Shown here: positions 42,909 through 52,361 of the stretch, one piece after another
How positions within the stretch are numbered: position 1 is the first letter of the stretch
How the letters are laid out: every line of letters begins with the position of its first letter
Assembly: GCF_913773735.1 (NCBI RefSeq)
Contig: NZ_CAJYEB010000049.1
Location: 124,001-188,000 of the forward strand
DNA length: 64,000 nucleotides
DNA from: an uncultured Massilia sp.
GTDB taxonomy: Bacteria > Pseudomonadota > Gammaproteobacteria > Burkholderiales > Burkholderiaceae_D
Reading direction: 5' to 3'
Made by a program: the position numbers and the translations under genes
The notes under the pieces: generated by a model
Seen by the model: only the letters and a program-made list of their open reading frames with translations
Database searches by the model: none
What the model was told of the DNA's origin: nothing

Positions 42909-43032
42909 TGTCGGACTCCAGAAGATGAGCGTGCGCACGGACGCCGGCGGCAGGCAACTGCGGCGAACGCCGCGCATCTGCGCGTAAAGACAGCCCAAGC
43001 CGGAGAACGAACCGTGCGAGCCCGCTAATATG

Positions 43033-43047
43033 ATGGAAAATTTCCAT
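43033..43047. promoter_or_regulatory. Perfect palindrome upstream of the RND operon
   Basis: ATGGAAA-A-TTTCCAT, 7 bp each side of a single A, lies 125 bp upstream of the permease start in AT-rich sequence. It has the form of a homodimeric repressor or LysR-type site. Confidence 0.4.
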
Positions 43048-43449
43048 GCTGGCTAGATGTTTTGCGGTGCAGCACGCGGGGAATTTTGTACAGTCCTGCA
43101 ACATGTACTGACAACGTTGAATTCCCCGCCGCCCGCAACCGCAGCGCGACACAATCGGATGCCGCCACGGCGCCGGACCGCAACCGTCGTCACGAAAGGA
43201 CGCCCCCTGTCGCAACGCATCCTGTTGCTCCCCCTGGCGCGAATCGCCGTTCTTCAGCGCGCGCGGACGGGCGGCGCCGGCCGGGGCGGACGCCTGGACG
43301 GCCAGCCGGGACGCGACGCCACCGACGCCGCCCGGCCCGCGCCGCGCGAGCGCTTCAGCCGGCGCCGGGCATGTCAGCCATCCTCGGTGGCCCCGGGAAC
43401 GGCGGCGGCCGGCCGTCGCAAGCCGGCCAGCGGCGTGCGCGCGGCCCGC

Positions 43450-43487
43450 CCGGCTGTGCCAAGTCCGCACTTTCCGGCTGTGCCAAG
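43450..43487. promoter_or_regulatory. Direct-repeat operator candidate of the MocR gene
   Basis: CCGGCTGTGCCAAG occurs identically at 43450-43463 and 43474-43487 (24-bp period), ending 76 bp before the MocR start. MocR-family regulators such as GabR and TauR bind pairs of direct repeats near their own promoters, which supports autoregulation here. Confidence 0.5.
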
Positions 43488-43563
43488 AAGGCGCCAGCCG
43501 GGCGCGCGCTCGCCCGCGGCCGCACACCGGTGGCATAATCGGCGGTCGACCACGACCATCGCC

Positions 43564-44988
43564 ATGAACCGCGCCCCGCTTCCCTCCTACCTGACGCTCG
43601 ACCCCGCCAGCACGCTGCCGCGCTACCGCCAGCTGCACCAGCGCGTGCGCGACGCCATCGGCGCCGGCCTGCTGCGGCCGGGCGACCGCATTCCCGCCGC
43701 GCGCTGGTTGGCGCAGGAACTGGGCGTGGCGCGCGGCACCGTGGCCGCGGCGGTGGCGCTGCTGGCCGCCGAAGGCTGCGTCGAGACGCGCGGGGCGGCC
43801 GGCGCCGTCGTCACCGCGCTGCCCGTGGCGGCCGAAGCGCCGGCCGCGGCGCCGGCGCCGGCCCGCCCCGGCCAGCCGCTGGACCTGGGCGCGGCCGTCG
43901 CGCCGCTCGCGCTGCAGATGGGCGTTCCCGCGCTCGACCGGTTCCCGCGCAAGACCTGGGCGCGCCTGGCCGCCGGCGCCGCGCGCGCCACCCAGGCGCG
44001 CCACATGCTCAAGGAATCCGCGTTCGGCGCGCCCGGCCTGCGCGCGGCCATCGCCGCCCACCTGCGCATCGCGCGCGGAATCGGCTGCGCCCCGGAACAG
44101 GTGTTCGTGACGGCCGGCTACCGCGAGACGCTGCACCGCGTCGCGCGCGTGCTGCTCAGGGCGGGCGACCGGGCCTGGACCGAGGATCCGGGCTTTCCGC
44201 CGACGCGCCACCTGCTGGGCGCGCTCGGCATCGAGACCGTGCCGGTGCCGGTCGACGCCGGGGGACTGGCCGTCGCCCAGGCGCTCGCGATGGCGCCGGC
44301 GGCGCGCGCCGCCGTGCTCACGCCCGCGCACCAGTGCCCGCTGGGCGTGGCCCTGTCCGGAACGCGCCGGCTGGAACTGCTCGACTGGGCGGCGCGCACC
44401 GGCGCCTGGCTGGTCGAGGACGACTAGGACGGCGAATTCCGCCATGCCGGCAAGCCGCTGCCGGCGCTGGCCAGCCTGGACCGCGACGGCCGCGTGCTCT
44501 ACTGCGGCACCTTCAGCAAGGTGATGTTCCCGGCGCTGCGCCTGGCCTACCTGGTGGTGCCGCCGGCGCTGGTGGAGCGCTTCGAGGCCGACGCCGCCAC
44601 CTTCGGCGCCGGCCAGCCGCTGCTGACCCAGGCGATCGTGCGCGACTTTCTGCAGGAAGGGCATTTCGTGCGCCACATCCAGCGCATGCGCCGGCTCTAC
44701 GCCGAGCGCAGCGCGCTGCTGCGCGCGGCCCTGCTGGACGCCGCCGGCGGCCGGCTCGACATCGATCCGCCGCCGGGCGGCATGCACCTGCTGGCGCGCC
44801 TGGCGCAGGGCGAGGACCGTGCGCTGGCGGCGCGCCTGCGCGCCGGCGGACTGGCGGTGCAGCCGCTGTCGTCCTGGTACGCCGGGCCGCGCGCGCGCGC
44901 CGGCCTGCTGCTGGGCTTCGCCAACGTCGCCGACCCCGGCCAGGCGGCGGTGCTGGCCGCGCGGCTGGCGGCTGCGCTGGACGGCTGA
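43564..44988 (+). pseudogene. MocR-type (GntR/aminotransferase) regulator with in-frame amber codon
   Basis: The frame starts at ATG 43564 and would encode about 474 aa, but codon 288 is TAG (44425-44427). Before it lie a GntR winged helix (LPRYRQLHQRVRDAIGAGLL, GDRIPAARWLAQELGVARGT) and half of a fold-I aminotransferase domain, ending AWLVEDD. After it the same frame continues without other damage as DGEFRHAGKPLPALASL, with the PLP lysine region YCGTFSKVMFP. Family members read EDDYDGEFR or EDDYDSEYR at this place, so a Tyr codon (TAC or TAT) became TAG by one substitution. The intact paralogue at 49303-50820 shows EDDYDSEYRF. A recent nonsense mutation, a sequencing error or amber read-through are all possible. 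Confidence 0.85.
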
Positions 44989-45036
44989 ACGGCTGAGCGG
45001 CGCGGCCCGGGCATCGCGCCGGGCCGCCCCCTGCCG

Positions 45037-45690
45037 TCACTGCAGTACCCGCGCCGCCCGCGCCACCGGCGCCTGCTCCGGCGCCGGGACCGCGCTGCGC
45101 CGGCCCGGATCGATCAGGCCGCGCGCCGCCGCGACGACGACGGCGTGGGTGCGGGCGGTCGCGTCCAGCTTGCTCATCACGCCCTTCACATGGGTCTTGA
45201 CGGTGCCGACCCCGATGCCGAGGCGGCGCGCGATCAGCTTGTTGCAATACCCCTCGGCCAGCAGGTGCAGCACGTCGGTCTCGCGCTCGGTCAGCGCGGC
45301 CCGCCCGAGGCCGGCCGCCACGTTGCGCGAGACCGGCTCGCTCAGGTAGCGGATGCCGCGCAGCAGCTGGCGCACCGCGTGCGCCAGCTCGTCCGCCGGA
45401 CAGGACTGGTGCAGGTAGCCCAGCACGCCGCTTTCCATCGCGGTGCGCACGTCCCACTCCTTGTCGCGCTGGCTGACGACCAGCACCGCCTGGCGGCCCG
45501 CGCCGGCGCGCGCCAGCGCGATCCCGGTCGCATGGTCGGCCACCAGCACGCGCGCCAGCGCGCGCTGGGCCGGTTCGCGCGCCTCGCTGGTGACGCGCCA
45601 GTCCGCGTGCGCGGCGAGGATGGCGTACAGGCCCGCGTCCATCGCGGGGTCGGCGTGCACGACGTGCACGTGGTTCGGAATCGTCGACAT
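45037..45690 (-). CDS. LuxR/NarL-type regulator with degenerate receiver
   Basis: A 217-aa protein whose ATG 45690 follows AGGAG at 8 bp. The C-terminal LuxR helix-turn-helix (about 145-200: ALTERETDVLHLLAEGYCNK, GTVKTHVKGVMSKL) is normal. The N-terminal receiver-like domain is atypical. The usual acidic pair is reduced to one Asp (HVVHADPAMD), a possible phospho-site is D52 in VLVADHATG, and the conserved Lys is replaced in GYLHQS. It may be a phosphorylation-independent or ligand-sensing pseudo-receiver. It is the last gene of a co-directional set with azoreductase and NADH dehydrogenase genes, so redox control is a guess. No partner histidine kinase is nearby. Confidence 0.85.
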   Translation of the reverse strand: MSTIPNHVHVVHADPAMDAGLYAILAAHADWRVTSEAREPAQRALARVLVADHATGIALARAGAGRQAVLVVSQRDKEWDVRTAMESGVLGYLHQSCPADELAHAVRQLLRGIRYLSEPVSRNVAAGLGRAALTERETDVLHLLAEGYCNKLIARRLGIGVGTVKTHVKGVMSKLDATARTHAVVVAAARGLIDPGRRSAVPAPEQAPVARAARVLQ

Positions 45691-45779
45691 GGTCTGGCTC
45701 CTGCTGGTGCGGCCGGCGCCGCGGGTTGCGATGCCGTCTTCATCGGCCGCGGCCCCCCGCGCGGGCAAGTCAAGCGATG

Positions 45780-46430
45780 TCATTCGCCGTGAAGGGCGCC
45801 GGTCACACGGGCGCCGGCCGGCGCCGGCAGCGCGGCGAACCAGCCGTCGACCGCCTCGCGGGCCGCGACGCGGGCAGCCTCGGCGCGCTGCGCGCCGAGC
45901 GCCGTGCCTTCCAGCGAGAACACGGTGATGTCGCGCAGGCCGATCATCGGCAGCACGGCGCGCAGGTAGGGCTCCAGGAAGTCCGGCTGGCGCGCGCGCG
46001 GGCCGGTGCGCAGGCCGCCGCTGCTGACGGCCACGTACACGGGGCGGTCCGCCAGCGTGCCGACCTTGCCCTGCGGCGTCAGGCGCATCGTGCGGTGCAC
46101 GCGCACCACGTGGTCGAGCCAGGCCTTCAGCGCCGACGGCACGGTAAGGTTGTGCATCGGGGTGCCGATCACCAGCACGTCGGCGGCTTCCAGTTCCGCG
46201 ATCAGCACGTCGGAGCGCGCCAGCGACGCGCCGCCGGCGGCGCCGTCGCCGCCGCCGAGGGCGTGCGCATAGTCGCCGTCCACGTGCGGCAGGTCGTGCA
46301 GCGACAGCAGGCGCTGGACGACGCGCGCGCCGGGACGGCGCCGGTGCAGGTGGCCCACCACGTGCTCGGACAGGCAATGGCTGTCGCTCTCGCGTCCGCG
46401 CGGGCTGGCGCTGATGTGCAGGATGTTCAT
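45780..46430 (-). CDS. azoR: FMN-dependent NADH-azoreductase
   Basis: A 216-aa flavodoxin-like fold protein. The FMN phosphate loop is ISASPRGRESDSHCLSEHVV, followed by IGTPMHNLTVPSALKAWLDHV, the AzoR/NQO-family flavin site. SSGG follows near residue 140. AzoR enzymes reduce quinones and azo compounds with NAD(P)H and protect against electrophilic quinones. ATG 46430 follows AGGAG. It starts 10 bp after the upstream GNAT gene and is followed by the LuxR gene, within a probable quinone/NADH redox operon. Confidence 0.9.
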   Translation of the reverse strand: MNILHISASPRGRESDSHCLSEHVVGHLHRRRPGARVVQRLLSLHDLPHVDGDYAHALGGGDGAAGGASLARSDVLIAELEAADVLVIGTPMHNLTVPSALKAWLDHVVRVHRTMRLTPQGKVGTLADRPVYVAVSSGGLRTGPRARQPDFLEPYLRAVLPMIGLRDITVFSLEGTALGAQRAEAARVAAREAVDGWFAALPAPAGARVTGALHGE

Positions 46431-47983: not shown

Positions 47984-49192
47984 TCAGGGCACGATGACGT
48001 GATCGGGATTGGCGGTCGCGAAGGCCGCCTCGCGCTGCGGCGCGGGGGGGTAGATCCATTCGGTGTTGATGGCGCGCTTGAGCGCCTTGGCCTCGGCGCC
48101 GGTCAGGCGCACCTGGCGGTCCCACCCTTCCGTGTAGACCGCGCCCCAGGGGCCGAGGTCCAGGCAGGTGACGTACTTGGGCTGGCGGTACGGGTGCAGC
48201 GGCAGCCCGGCCAGCTCCGCGGCGGCGTTGTGGCCGGCCACGCGGCCCAGGCCGAGCGCGTGCTGGCACGACATGGCCGCCACGTTGCCGGCATCGTCGG
48301 TGGCGGCGCGCGCCACGTCGCCCGCCACGAATACCCCGTCCACCCCGGCCGCATGCAGGAAGTCGTCCGCCGGCACCCGGCCGAAGCGGTCGTGGCCGGC
48401 GCCGACCATCACGGCCAGCGGATTGGCGCGCATGCCGGCGGTCCAGATGACGGTGGCGGCTTCGAAGCGGCGCCCGTCCGCCGTGGTGGCGCCGCCGGCA
48501 TCGATGGCGGCCACCCGCGCGCCGGTCACGACCTCGATCCCGAGCTCGGCCAGCGCCGCCTCGATCACCGGCCGCGGCGCCGGTCCGAGGTCGGGGCCGA
48601 TCGCTTCGGCCTGCTCCAGGATCACCACGCGCACGTCGGCGTCCAGGCCCAGCACGCGGCGCAGGCGTTGCGGCATCTCGGCCGCGGTCTCGATGCCGGT
48701 GAAGCCCCCGCCGGCGACCAGCACCGTGTCGCGCGCCCGGCTCGCCGGCCGCGCCGCCAGGTCGCACAGGTGGCGCTCGAGCGCCTGCGCGCCGTCGAGC
48801 TGGTCGACGTCGAACGCATAGGCGGCCAGCCCCGGGACCGCCGGCCGGAACACGCGGCTGCCGGTGGCCAGCACGAAGCGGTCGTAGGGCAGCACGTGGC
48901 GCGTGCCGTCGTTGGCGCCGACGTAGACCCGGCGCGCGGCCGCGTCGATGTCCTGCACGTGGCCGGCCAGGTGGCGCACGCCGACCGCCGCGAACAGCGG
49001 CGCGAGGTCGGGCGCCATGCCCTCCAGCGCCGCCTCGTACAGGCGCGGACGCATGTGCAGCGCGGCCTGCGGCGAGACGACGGTGATGCCGATGCCGTCT
49101 TCCCGGCCCGCCAGCGCCACGGCGCGCGCCGCCGCCAGCGCCGCCCAGGTCCCGGCGAAACCGCTGCCCGCGATGACGATCTCCTGTTTCAT
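47984..49192 (-). CDS. Type II NADH:quinone oxidoreductase-like flavoprotein
   Basis: A 402-aa two-dinucleotide-binding flavoprotein. The FAD site is IVIAGSGFAGTWAALAAARA at the N-terminus, the NAD(P)H site is VLVAGGGFTGIETAAEMPQR (about 162-181), and the second FAD motif is VDGVFVAGDVARA. This matches the NDH-2 family, which moves electrons from NADH to quinone without pumping protons. There is no clear C-terminal membrane helix. It is the first gene of the five-gene minus-strand set and diverges from an intact MocR regulator with 110 bp between starts. A nitroreductase- or sulfide-quinone-like activity is an alternative. Confidence 0.87.
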   Translation of the reverse strand: MKQEIVIAGSGFAGTWAALAAARAVALAGREDGIGITVVSPQAALHMRPRLYEAALEGMAPDLAPLFAAVGVRHLAGHVQDIDAAARRVYVGANDGTRHVLPYDRFVLATGSRVFRPAVPGLAAYAFDVDQLDGAQALERHLCDLAARPASRARDTVLVAGGGFTGIETAAEMPQRLRRVLGLDADVRVVILEQAEAIGPDLGPAPRPVIEAALAELGIEVVTGARVAAIDAGGATTADGRRFEAATVIWTAGMRANPLAVMVGAGHDRFGRVPADDFLHAAGVDGVFVAGDVARAATDDAGNVAAMSCQHALGLGRVAGHNAAAELAGLPLHPYRQPKYVTCLDLGPWGAVYTEGWDRQVRLTGAEAKALKRAINTEWIYPPAPQREAAFATANPDHVIVP

Positions 49193-49302
49193 GATGTGCT
49201 CCTCGGTGGTTGTCGATGGCGCCATTCTCGAATTACACTGGCCTCCTGTCTTGATCCGGATTTCACATAAATGACTAGTCCACTTTGCAGGGGCGGCCGC
49301 CG

Positions 49303-50820
49303 ATGAGCGCGCGCCGCCGTACCGATGCGCCGATCTGGTCGCTTCCCCTGGGCAGCCCGGACGACGGCGAAACGCTGCAGCGCTGGCTGTACCGCACGCT
49401 GCGCCAGGCCATCCTGGACGGGCGTCTCGGTCCCGGGGCGCGCCTGCCCGGCACCCGCGCGCTGGCGCGCCAGCAGGCGCTCGCGCGCGGCACCGTGCAG
49501 GCGGCCTACGACCAGCTGCTGTCCGAGGGCTACCTGGACGCCGCCCGCGGCAGCGCCACGCGCGTGGCGGCGACCCTGCCGGAGCGCAGCCTGCAGGCGC
49601 CGGCCGCGCACGACGGGCCGCCGGCGCCCGCGCGCCCCGAGCCGGCACCGCCGCCGGCGGCCTGGTGGACCGGACGGCTGGACGGACTGGGCGCCGCCTT
49701 CCCGCTGCAGCCGGCGCCGGGCGGCGCGCCGCCGTTCCACCCGCACCGCTGCGACGTCGCCGCCTTCCCGGTGGACACCTGGCGCCGCCTGCACGTGCGC
49801 CACCTGCGCCCGGGCCGCCCGGACGTGTTCGGCGATACCGGCCCCGCTGGCCTGGCGGCGCTGCGCCAGGCGATCGCCGCCCACCTGCACGTGGCGCGCG
49901 GCGTGGCGGTGCCGCCCGAGCAGATCGTGGTGCTCGGCAGCGTGCAGCAGGCGCTCGACATCTGCCTGCGCCTGCTGGTCGGGCCGGGCGAGACGGTCTG
50001 GATGGAGGATCCGGGCTATGCCGGCGCGCGCCAACTGATGCTGGCCTCGGGCGCGCGCGTGGCCGACGTGCCGGTCGACGCCGACGGCATGCGGGTCGAG
50101 GACGGCCTGCGCGCCGCGCCGCACGCGCGCCTGGCCTACGTCACCCCGGCGCGCCAGGCGCCGCTGGGGATGGCGCTGGCGCCGCAGCGGCGCCTGGCCC
50201 TGCTCGACTGGGCGGTCGCGAACGATGCCTACGTGTTCGAGGACGACTACGACAGCGAGTACCGGTTCGTCGCCAAGCCGATCCCGGCCCTGCGCAGCCA
50301 TCCGGGCAGCGAGCGCCACGTGATCCTGGCCGGCACCTTCAGCAAGCTGCTGTTCCCCGGCATCCGCCTGGCCTTCGTCGCGCTGCCGCGCCACCTCGTC
50401 GACCGCTTCGTGCGCGCCTTCTCGCTGACCAACCGCGGCGCCGGCGGCCTGGCGCAGGCGGTGCTGGCCGACTTCATGGCCGAGGGCCATTTCGACCGCC
50501 ACGTGCGGCGCATGCGCCGCCTGTACGCGGCGCGCGCCGCCGCCTTCGAGGATGCGGCGCGGCGCCACTGGCACGGCCTGCTGGAGGTGCCGGCGCCGCA
50601 GGCCGGGCTGGACGTGGTGGCGCGCCTCGTCGGCATGGACGAGGACACGGCGCTGGCGCGCCTGGCGCCGGCCGGGCTGACCGGTTTTCCGCTGCGGCGC
50701 TACTGCGGCAGCGCGCGTCCGGCGCCCGGACTGGTGATGGGCTTCGCGCCGTTCGACGCCGACGCCATCGAGGATGGCGCGCGGCGCATCGCGCGCGCCC
50801 TGTCCGGCCGCGGCGCGTGA
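49303..50820 (+). CDS. MocR-type (GntR/aminotransferase) transcriptional regulator
   Basis: A 505-aa intact MocR protein starting at ATG 49303. The winged helix (about 25-90: TLRQAILDGRLGPGARLPGT, QALARGTVQAAYDQLLSEGY) is followed by a linker of about 60 residues rich in Ala and Pro and an aminotransferase fold-I domain. PLP-domain marks are VFEDDYDSEYRF and the Schiff-base Lys in AGTFSKLLFPGIRLAF. It diverges from the NADH dehydrogenase-azoR operon, which it probably controls. It is the natural comparator for the amber-interrupted paralogue at 43564. Confidence 0.93.
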   Translation: MSARRRTDAPIWSLPLGSPDDGETLQRWLYRTLRQAILDGRLGPGARLPGTRALARQQALARGTVQAAYDQLLSEGYLDAARGSATRVAATLPERSLQAPAAHDGPPAPARPEPAPPPAAWWTGRLDGLGAAFPLQPAPGGAPPFHPHRCDVAAFPVDTWRRLHVRHLRPGRPDVFGDTGPAGLAALRQAIAAHLHVARGVAVPPEQIVVLGSVQQALDICLRLLVGPGETVWMEDPGYAGARQLMLASGARVADVPVDADGMRVEDGLRAAPHARLAYVTPARQAPLGMALAPQRRLALLDWAVANDAYVFEDDYDSEYRFVAKPIPALRSHPGSERHVILAGTFSKLLFPGIRLAFVALPRHLVDRFVRAFSLTNRGAGGLAQAVLADFMAEGHFDRHVRRMRRLYAARAAAFEDAARRHWHGLLEVPAPQAGLDVVARLVGMDEDTALARLAPAGLTGFPLRRYCGSARPAPGLVMGFAPFDADAIEDGARRIARALSGRGA

Positions 50821-52243: not shown

Positions 52244-52361
52244 GCATTCTCCTGTGGAAGCGCGCGCGCTGGCGCAACGCCACCAGTCTAGCGACGCACG
52301 ATTGCCCCCACCGGGCCAAGACCGCGGTTTTCGACCGGGCCAAGCCAGCGGCGCCCGCTTA

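Follow-up and report, generated by a model that had tools for sequence, protein, structure and literature searches.

An amber codon at the PLP-contacting tyrosine of a MocR/GabR-type regulator gene in an uncultured Massilia sp.: probably a recent null allele

A regulator gene of the MocR/GabR type in an uncultured Massilia sp. carries an in-frame TAG exactly where its relatives encode a tyrosine that contacts PLP, which raises the question of whether the gene has been lost, is read through, makes a useful short product, or is in fact intact in the organism and miscalled in the assembly. We addressed it in a stretch of 64,000 nt (the window), which lies in contig C49 of a 5.88-Mb draft genome of 52 contigs. 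The reading that we regard as probable is that a PLP-dependent autoregulator was inactivated very recently by a single nonsense mutation at the tyrosine codon and that the allele is null. It would most likely be an ordinary recent nonsense allele rather than a new kind of regulator, and no new mechanism is indicated.

Read with TAG as X, the frame extends from the ATG at 43564 to a TGA at 44986-44988; of its 474 codons, only codon 288, flanked by EDD and DGEFR, is an internal stop. The preliminary description, which had reported an otherwise undamaged frame with an amber codon at the PLP-contacting tyrosine and the motif EDDYD in the paralogue at 49303, was correct on all these points. The start was assigned by homology, and no clear ribosome-binding site was visible by eye upstream of it; a restart at GTG 44494 was considered unlikely since none was visible by eye there either, an argument weakened by the same lack at the assigned start. 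The read-through protein matches the GntR wHTH family (PF00392, 52.6 bits against a cut-off of 27, E 3.5e-14) and the fold-I family Aminotran_1_2 (PF00155, 76.7 bits, E 2.6e-21), and four relatives from the genus align with it from residue 6 or 8 to residue 473 at 58 to 61% identity; the frame is therefore a gene and not a chance GC-rich open reading frame. The PLP lysine K319 and the aspartate D286 of the MocR/GabR type are both present in the DNA, while a protein ended at residue 287 is without K319. With its two-domain frame interrupted at codon 288, the locus is a disrupted gene of the MocR/GabR subfamily of GntR regulators, not an intact member. A tRNA-Ala called by ARAGORN across its 3' end (44933-45028) was dismissed as false, the contig having no RF00005 match and the Rfam tRNA families giving none at 43000-46000 with E values up to 1. 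The features of the locus are collected in Table 1.

Table 1. Positions in the window of the mocR gene, its predicted control elements and the neighbouring features discussed in the text
Feature	Position	Strand	Remarks
Operator box 1	43450..43463	+	CCGGCTGTGCCAAG; predicted
Operator box 2	43474..43487	+	direct repeat identical to box 1 and offset from its start by 24 nt; predicted
Third box	43488..43501	-	putative; weak, inverted, 8/14 positions (own count); clearer in sisters L003-L005
GCATAAT	43533..43539	+	-10-like, putative promoter element; common to the window and sisters L002-L005
mocR, 5' part	43564..44424	+	287 codons: GntR-type wHTH, linker, start of the fold-I PLP domain
TAG	44425..44427	+	codon 288, column of GabR Tyr281
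mocR, 3' part	44428..44988	+	undamaged; PLP lysine codon 319, phosphate arginine codon 326, TGA end
LuxR-type regulator gene	45040..45690	-	GerE domain; convergent neighbour
MocR paralogue	49303..50820	+	intact, 44% identical
Second operator-like pair	52311..52344	+	two copies of CCGGGCCAAG at 24-nt spacing, flanked by the genes for ALDH (-) and SDR (+)

GabR of Bacillus subtilis (PDB 4N0B, 4MGR), which likewise joins a wHTH to a fold-I PLP domain, served as the reference for the residues concerned. Counted on the alignment, codon 288 corresponds to Tyr281 of GabR, and Asp279, Lys312 and Arg319 are kept as D286, K319 and R326. In GabR, Tyr281 stacks with the PLP ring and is believed to hold Lys312 away from the PLP-GABA aldimine (excerpt of PMC6917764). 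Besides the stop, the window gene differs from GabR in having Pro at the position of Arg207 and Cys at that of Phe250, and its effector is thus probably not GABA. The GabR cluster is marked by the aromatic triplet Tyr205/Phe250/Tyr281 (excerpt of PMC6677901); the window gene has F211, C258 and the stop at 288 in these columns, so that the triplet is not kept, and its five sister orthologues in the genus have F, then C or S, then Y (N in one, G005). The read-through protein also scores 372.6 bits with the PdxR-type MocR model (NF052282, cut-off 320), a label that is unspecific here, as the paralogue passes the same cut-off with 372.5. Some PdxR are known to have direct boxes mixed with inverted ones (excerpt of PMC5320631), and the eight window neighbours scanned include no pyridoxine (pdx) gene.

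How strictly the tyrosine is conserved depends on the relatives considered. It was found in 69 of the 70 aligned relatives, 55 of which came from genome searches and 15 from the 27 named loci (L031, on the same contig as L002, and the partial or distant L046 and L048-L057 were left out); the single exception has Asn. The solved relative closest in sequence, 7pq9 (entitled PLP-dependent aminotransferase family protein), has Tyr there, and so does the next, GabR. The earlier statement that homologues share the tyrosine thus stands for the relatives aligned here and does not extend to the whole family: Tyr281 is typical of the GabR cluster, and Ala, Val or Ile are frequent at this column in other MocR clusters (excerpt of PMC6677901). 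A homologue of Bradyrhizobium macuxiense (L047, 8001-9366), kept in the alignment group of all relatives, appears to carry a frameshift, with its two parts in separate frames. That the stop falls on the tyrosine is probably a coincidence, since 60 of the 474 codons besides codon 288 are one change from a stop. A given nonsense mutation would strike the PLP tyrosine with a chance of roughly 1 in 60, which is mildly striking and no evidence of design.

Among 88 matches from 392 family genomes (E 1e-100, at most four candidates scored per genome, one genome per species), an internal stop occurred in the window copy only. At E 1e-60, 2 of 112 matches from 62 genus genomes had one, the window copy and G005:C23, where the stop is a TGA 10 codons short of the end of the aligned stretch. 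The main rival explanation is that the organism has an intact gene and that the TAG arose as an error in the consensus. The assembly is a draft, and neither the frame nor the promoter shows any decay, a lack that fits an error equally well. Against this, 159 matches in the same assembly (27 to Aminotran_1_2, 52 to the TonB receptor and 80 to ABC families) contained no stop, and 19 matches to the MocR protein itself contained one; the assembly thus does not look noisy, although the Aminotran_1_2 control did not list the mocR locus despite its 76.7 bits, so that broken genes may be under-reported in it. The site is also remote from both ends of its 244-kb contig, and, as a rule, consensus sequences contain few lone substitution errors. 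Weighing these points, we infer that the base is real and regard an error as unlikely, though as the strongest of the competing readings. As to the local sequence, CTAG is scarce across the window (12 occurrences against 55 expected from trinucleotides), and the mocR TAG sits in one.

We then determined whether the part of the gene behind the stop had begun to decay. GC3 is flat across the stop (0.951 before it and 0.952 after it). In the tree, the window gene is sister to the five genus orthologues with support of 100/98, and its branch of 0.48 compares with about 0.42 to 0.58 summed for the sisters, with no acceleration. Among columns invariant in 26 outgroup rows, the window gene has changed 7 of 69 after the stop and 9 of 77 in the middle part, against 10 to 15 of 69 and 12 to 13 of 77, respectively, in the five sisters. 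In the first 96 residues it has changed 9 of 38, slightly above the 5 of 37 or 38 to 8 of 37 or 38 of the four sisters that keep the N-terminus; L006, whose N-terminus is missing, has changed 1 of 3 there. Relative-rate counts for the 3' part gave 13 to 16 changes in the window gene only against 21 to 29 in the sister only. Neutral decay is thereby limited to about 2 to 12% of the branch, under an assumed omega of 0.05 to 0.2 and with no baseline change allowed. Unchanged GC3, an ordinary branch, conserved 3' columns and the small limit on decay together mean that the lesion is recent or is an error, two of the possibilities that the preliminary description had put forward, next to a strain-specific inactivation. 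Relaxed selection was also considered, since, among the 31 clade rows, the window gene shows the most departures from clade-invariant columns (at the 98% level 7 of 114, against 4 in the next row), mostly before the stop. It was rejected: the five sisters had themselves helped to define invariance, and the effect was gone with outgroup-defined columns except in the first 96 residues.

An undamaged 3' half would also fit continued translation past the TAG to a full-length protein, whether through a suppressor, through a recoding system or through misreading by near-cognate tRNA-Tyr, and for an autoregulator few copies may suffice. An amber-suppressor tRNA, which had been proposed as something to look for, was not found: none of the 64 tRNA genes (64 by RF00005, and 64 by ARAGORN on the 39 stretches holding them) has a CTA anticodon, which is still compatible with rare misreading. 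The PylS model reached 27 bits in this genome, below its cut-off of 178; of the 14 control genomes, 13 gave a match in this search, but just one of them exceeded the cut-off. TAG moreover serves as the end of 5 of the 36 high-GC3 open reading frames of the window, a crude choice of frames. On these grounds a suppressor tRNA, pyrrolysine and a reassigned UAG were rejected. The window copy being the only one of the 88 family-level matches with a stop (at most four candidates scored per genome) speaks against readthrough as well, which we hold to be very improbable in any form. In one particular form, the native protein could be regenerated through tRNA-Tyr, because the amber codon stands at a tyrosine position; low-level misreading would then supply a trickle of the native autoregulator and the stop would act as a dose-setting device, an idea to which we give even less credence. 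One tRNA-SeC gene with a tca anticodon was seen elsewhere in the genome (G000:C35:151725-151815, L136) and suggests use of selenocysteine there.

The region upstream of mocR carries a perfect 14-nt direct repeat, its copies starting 24 nt apart and lying 77 to 114 nt before the ATG, such as arose in 4 of 5,000 Markov resamplings of this region. Related boxes with the same 24-nt spacing and 0 or 1 mismatch to the pattern stand in the corresponding stretch of sisters L002-L005, with an inverted box after them in L003-L005. The fifth sister, G010, gave no such pair in its 19-kb locus, where the wHTH is missing too. Two direct boxes and an inverted one make up the commonest MocR motif, present in 32% of regulons, and GabR itself binds direct repeats (excerpt of PMC5320631). 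This repeat layout is found at the promoter of the window gene, with the inverted box weak, and the boxes are its predicted operator.

With both the wHTH and the operator intact, the 287-residue product could in principle be a selected short regulator, bound to the operator without PLP sensing and acting constitutively or dominantly over full-length paralogues. Under long selection for such a product, however, the 3' part should have decayed, and it is instead as conserved as in the sisters; the cut also falls within the fold, and the remaining 87 family-level matches, from up to four scored candidates per genome, are free of internal stops. In GabR, C-terminal dimerisation is what enables DNA binding (excerpt of PMC6522883). 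The constitutive or dominant half-protein of the preliminary description therefore appears unlikely, and we would assign the short regulator as a whole only a slim chance. Since the product lacks both the PLP lysine and the C-terminal half on which GabR depends for dimerisation and DNA binding, a null allele is the likelier outcome of the recent nonsense mutation. Translation would end at residue 287 and reach neither the PLP lysine nor the dimer-building second half of the aminotransferase fold. The resulting fragment is predicted to be unstable, inactive and unable to hold both operator boxes. The putative autoregulation would be lost, and with it control over other targets. Besides the promoter of mocR itself, those controlled may include the divergent RND operon and, at 52311, the promoter of ALDH/SDR.

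The last of these carries the second operator-like pair, which suggests a candidate second target of the broken MocR, or of the paralogue, with ALDH and SDR as the genes controlled. For the paralogue, no direct repeat of at least 9 nt was found at 49130-49330, which slightly favours the broken MocR as the owner of the pair. The strict operator pattern occurs at four places in the 62 genus genomes, namely both window sites, the mocR promoter of G021 and one site in G042; the pattern had been widened after the 52311 pair was seen, so that its match there is partly circular. The backward control also gave four places, all in one genome (G028). The narrower pattern gave 15 places in the window's own genome with up to 2 mismatches, against 6 for the backward control, and, with up to 3 mismatches allowed, 5 in the window, where shuffled sequence averaged 0.72. 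The strict pattern had no place in the 391,778 bases of the named loci L032-L057. The site in G042 lies at G042:C1:2831266-2831299, and the genus search gave that genome no close mocR orthologue.

Orthologues of mocR with at least 58% identity are present in 6 of the 62 genus genomes, that of the window included. Those of Massilia niastensis (L002), G021 and G036 resemble the window gene in identity (58 to 61%), operator layout and membership of the sister clade (100/98), and have Rrf2 and CMD genes within 19 kb, as does the window; G021 and G036 have the SDR gene too. Unlike it, they have Tyr at the column and an open frame, and their 18- to 19-kb loci gave no match to the RND gene of the window. 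Overall, a close Rrf2 relative occurs in all five sister loci, CMD in four (not G010) and SDR, at 69%, in three (G021, G005 and G036); in the window, these genes sit 7 to 11 kb from mocR with other genes between. The two other orthologues are altered. In G005 (L004, G005:C67:41523-42929), the frame is otherwise open but has Asn at the Tyr281 column. In G010, a genome of one contig, nothing corresponding to the initial 91 residues of the L003 match was found, and the MocR PLP domain lies in frame behind a protein resembling glycosyltransferase family 41 (L062 7641-10298; 18.4 bits, below the cut-off of 25). Three of the six clade members thus have a lesion or a pocket change: the stop in the window, the loss of the DNA-binding domain in G010 and the Asn in G005. 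Given this and the sparse occurrence of orthologues, the regulator looks dispensable in its clade.

The window gene would accordingly be a clean case of a PLP-dependent regulator that has apparently only just been lost, in a clade that keeps the gene sparsely and has altered it in other ways as well. Beyond the allele itself, the interest of the locus lies in this repeated alteration and in the predicted operator and candidate targets that it offers for a MocR group so far uncharacterised. Among the sister loci, sequences resembling the N-terminus of the convergent LuxR-type regulator were seen by eye near mocR in L058, L059 and L061, the three viewed.
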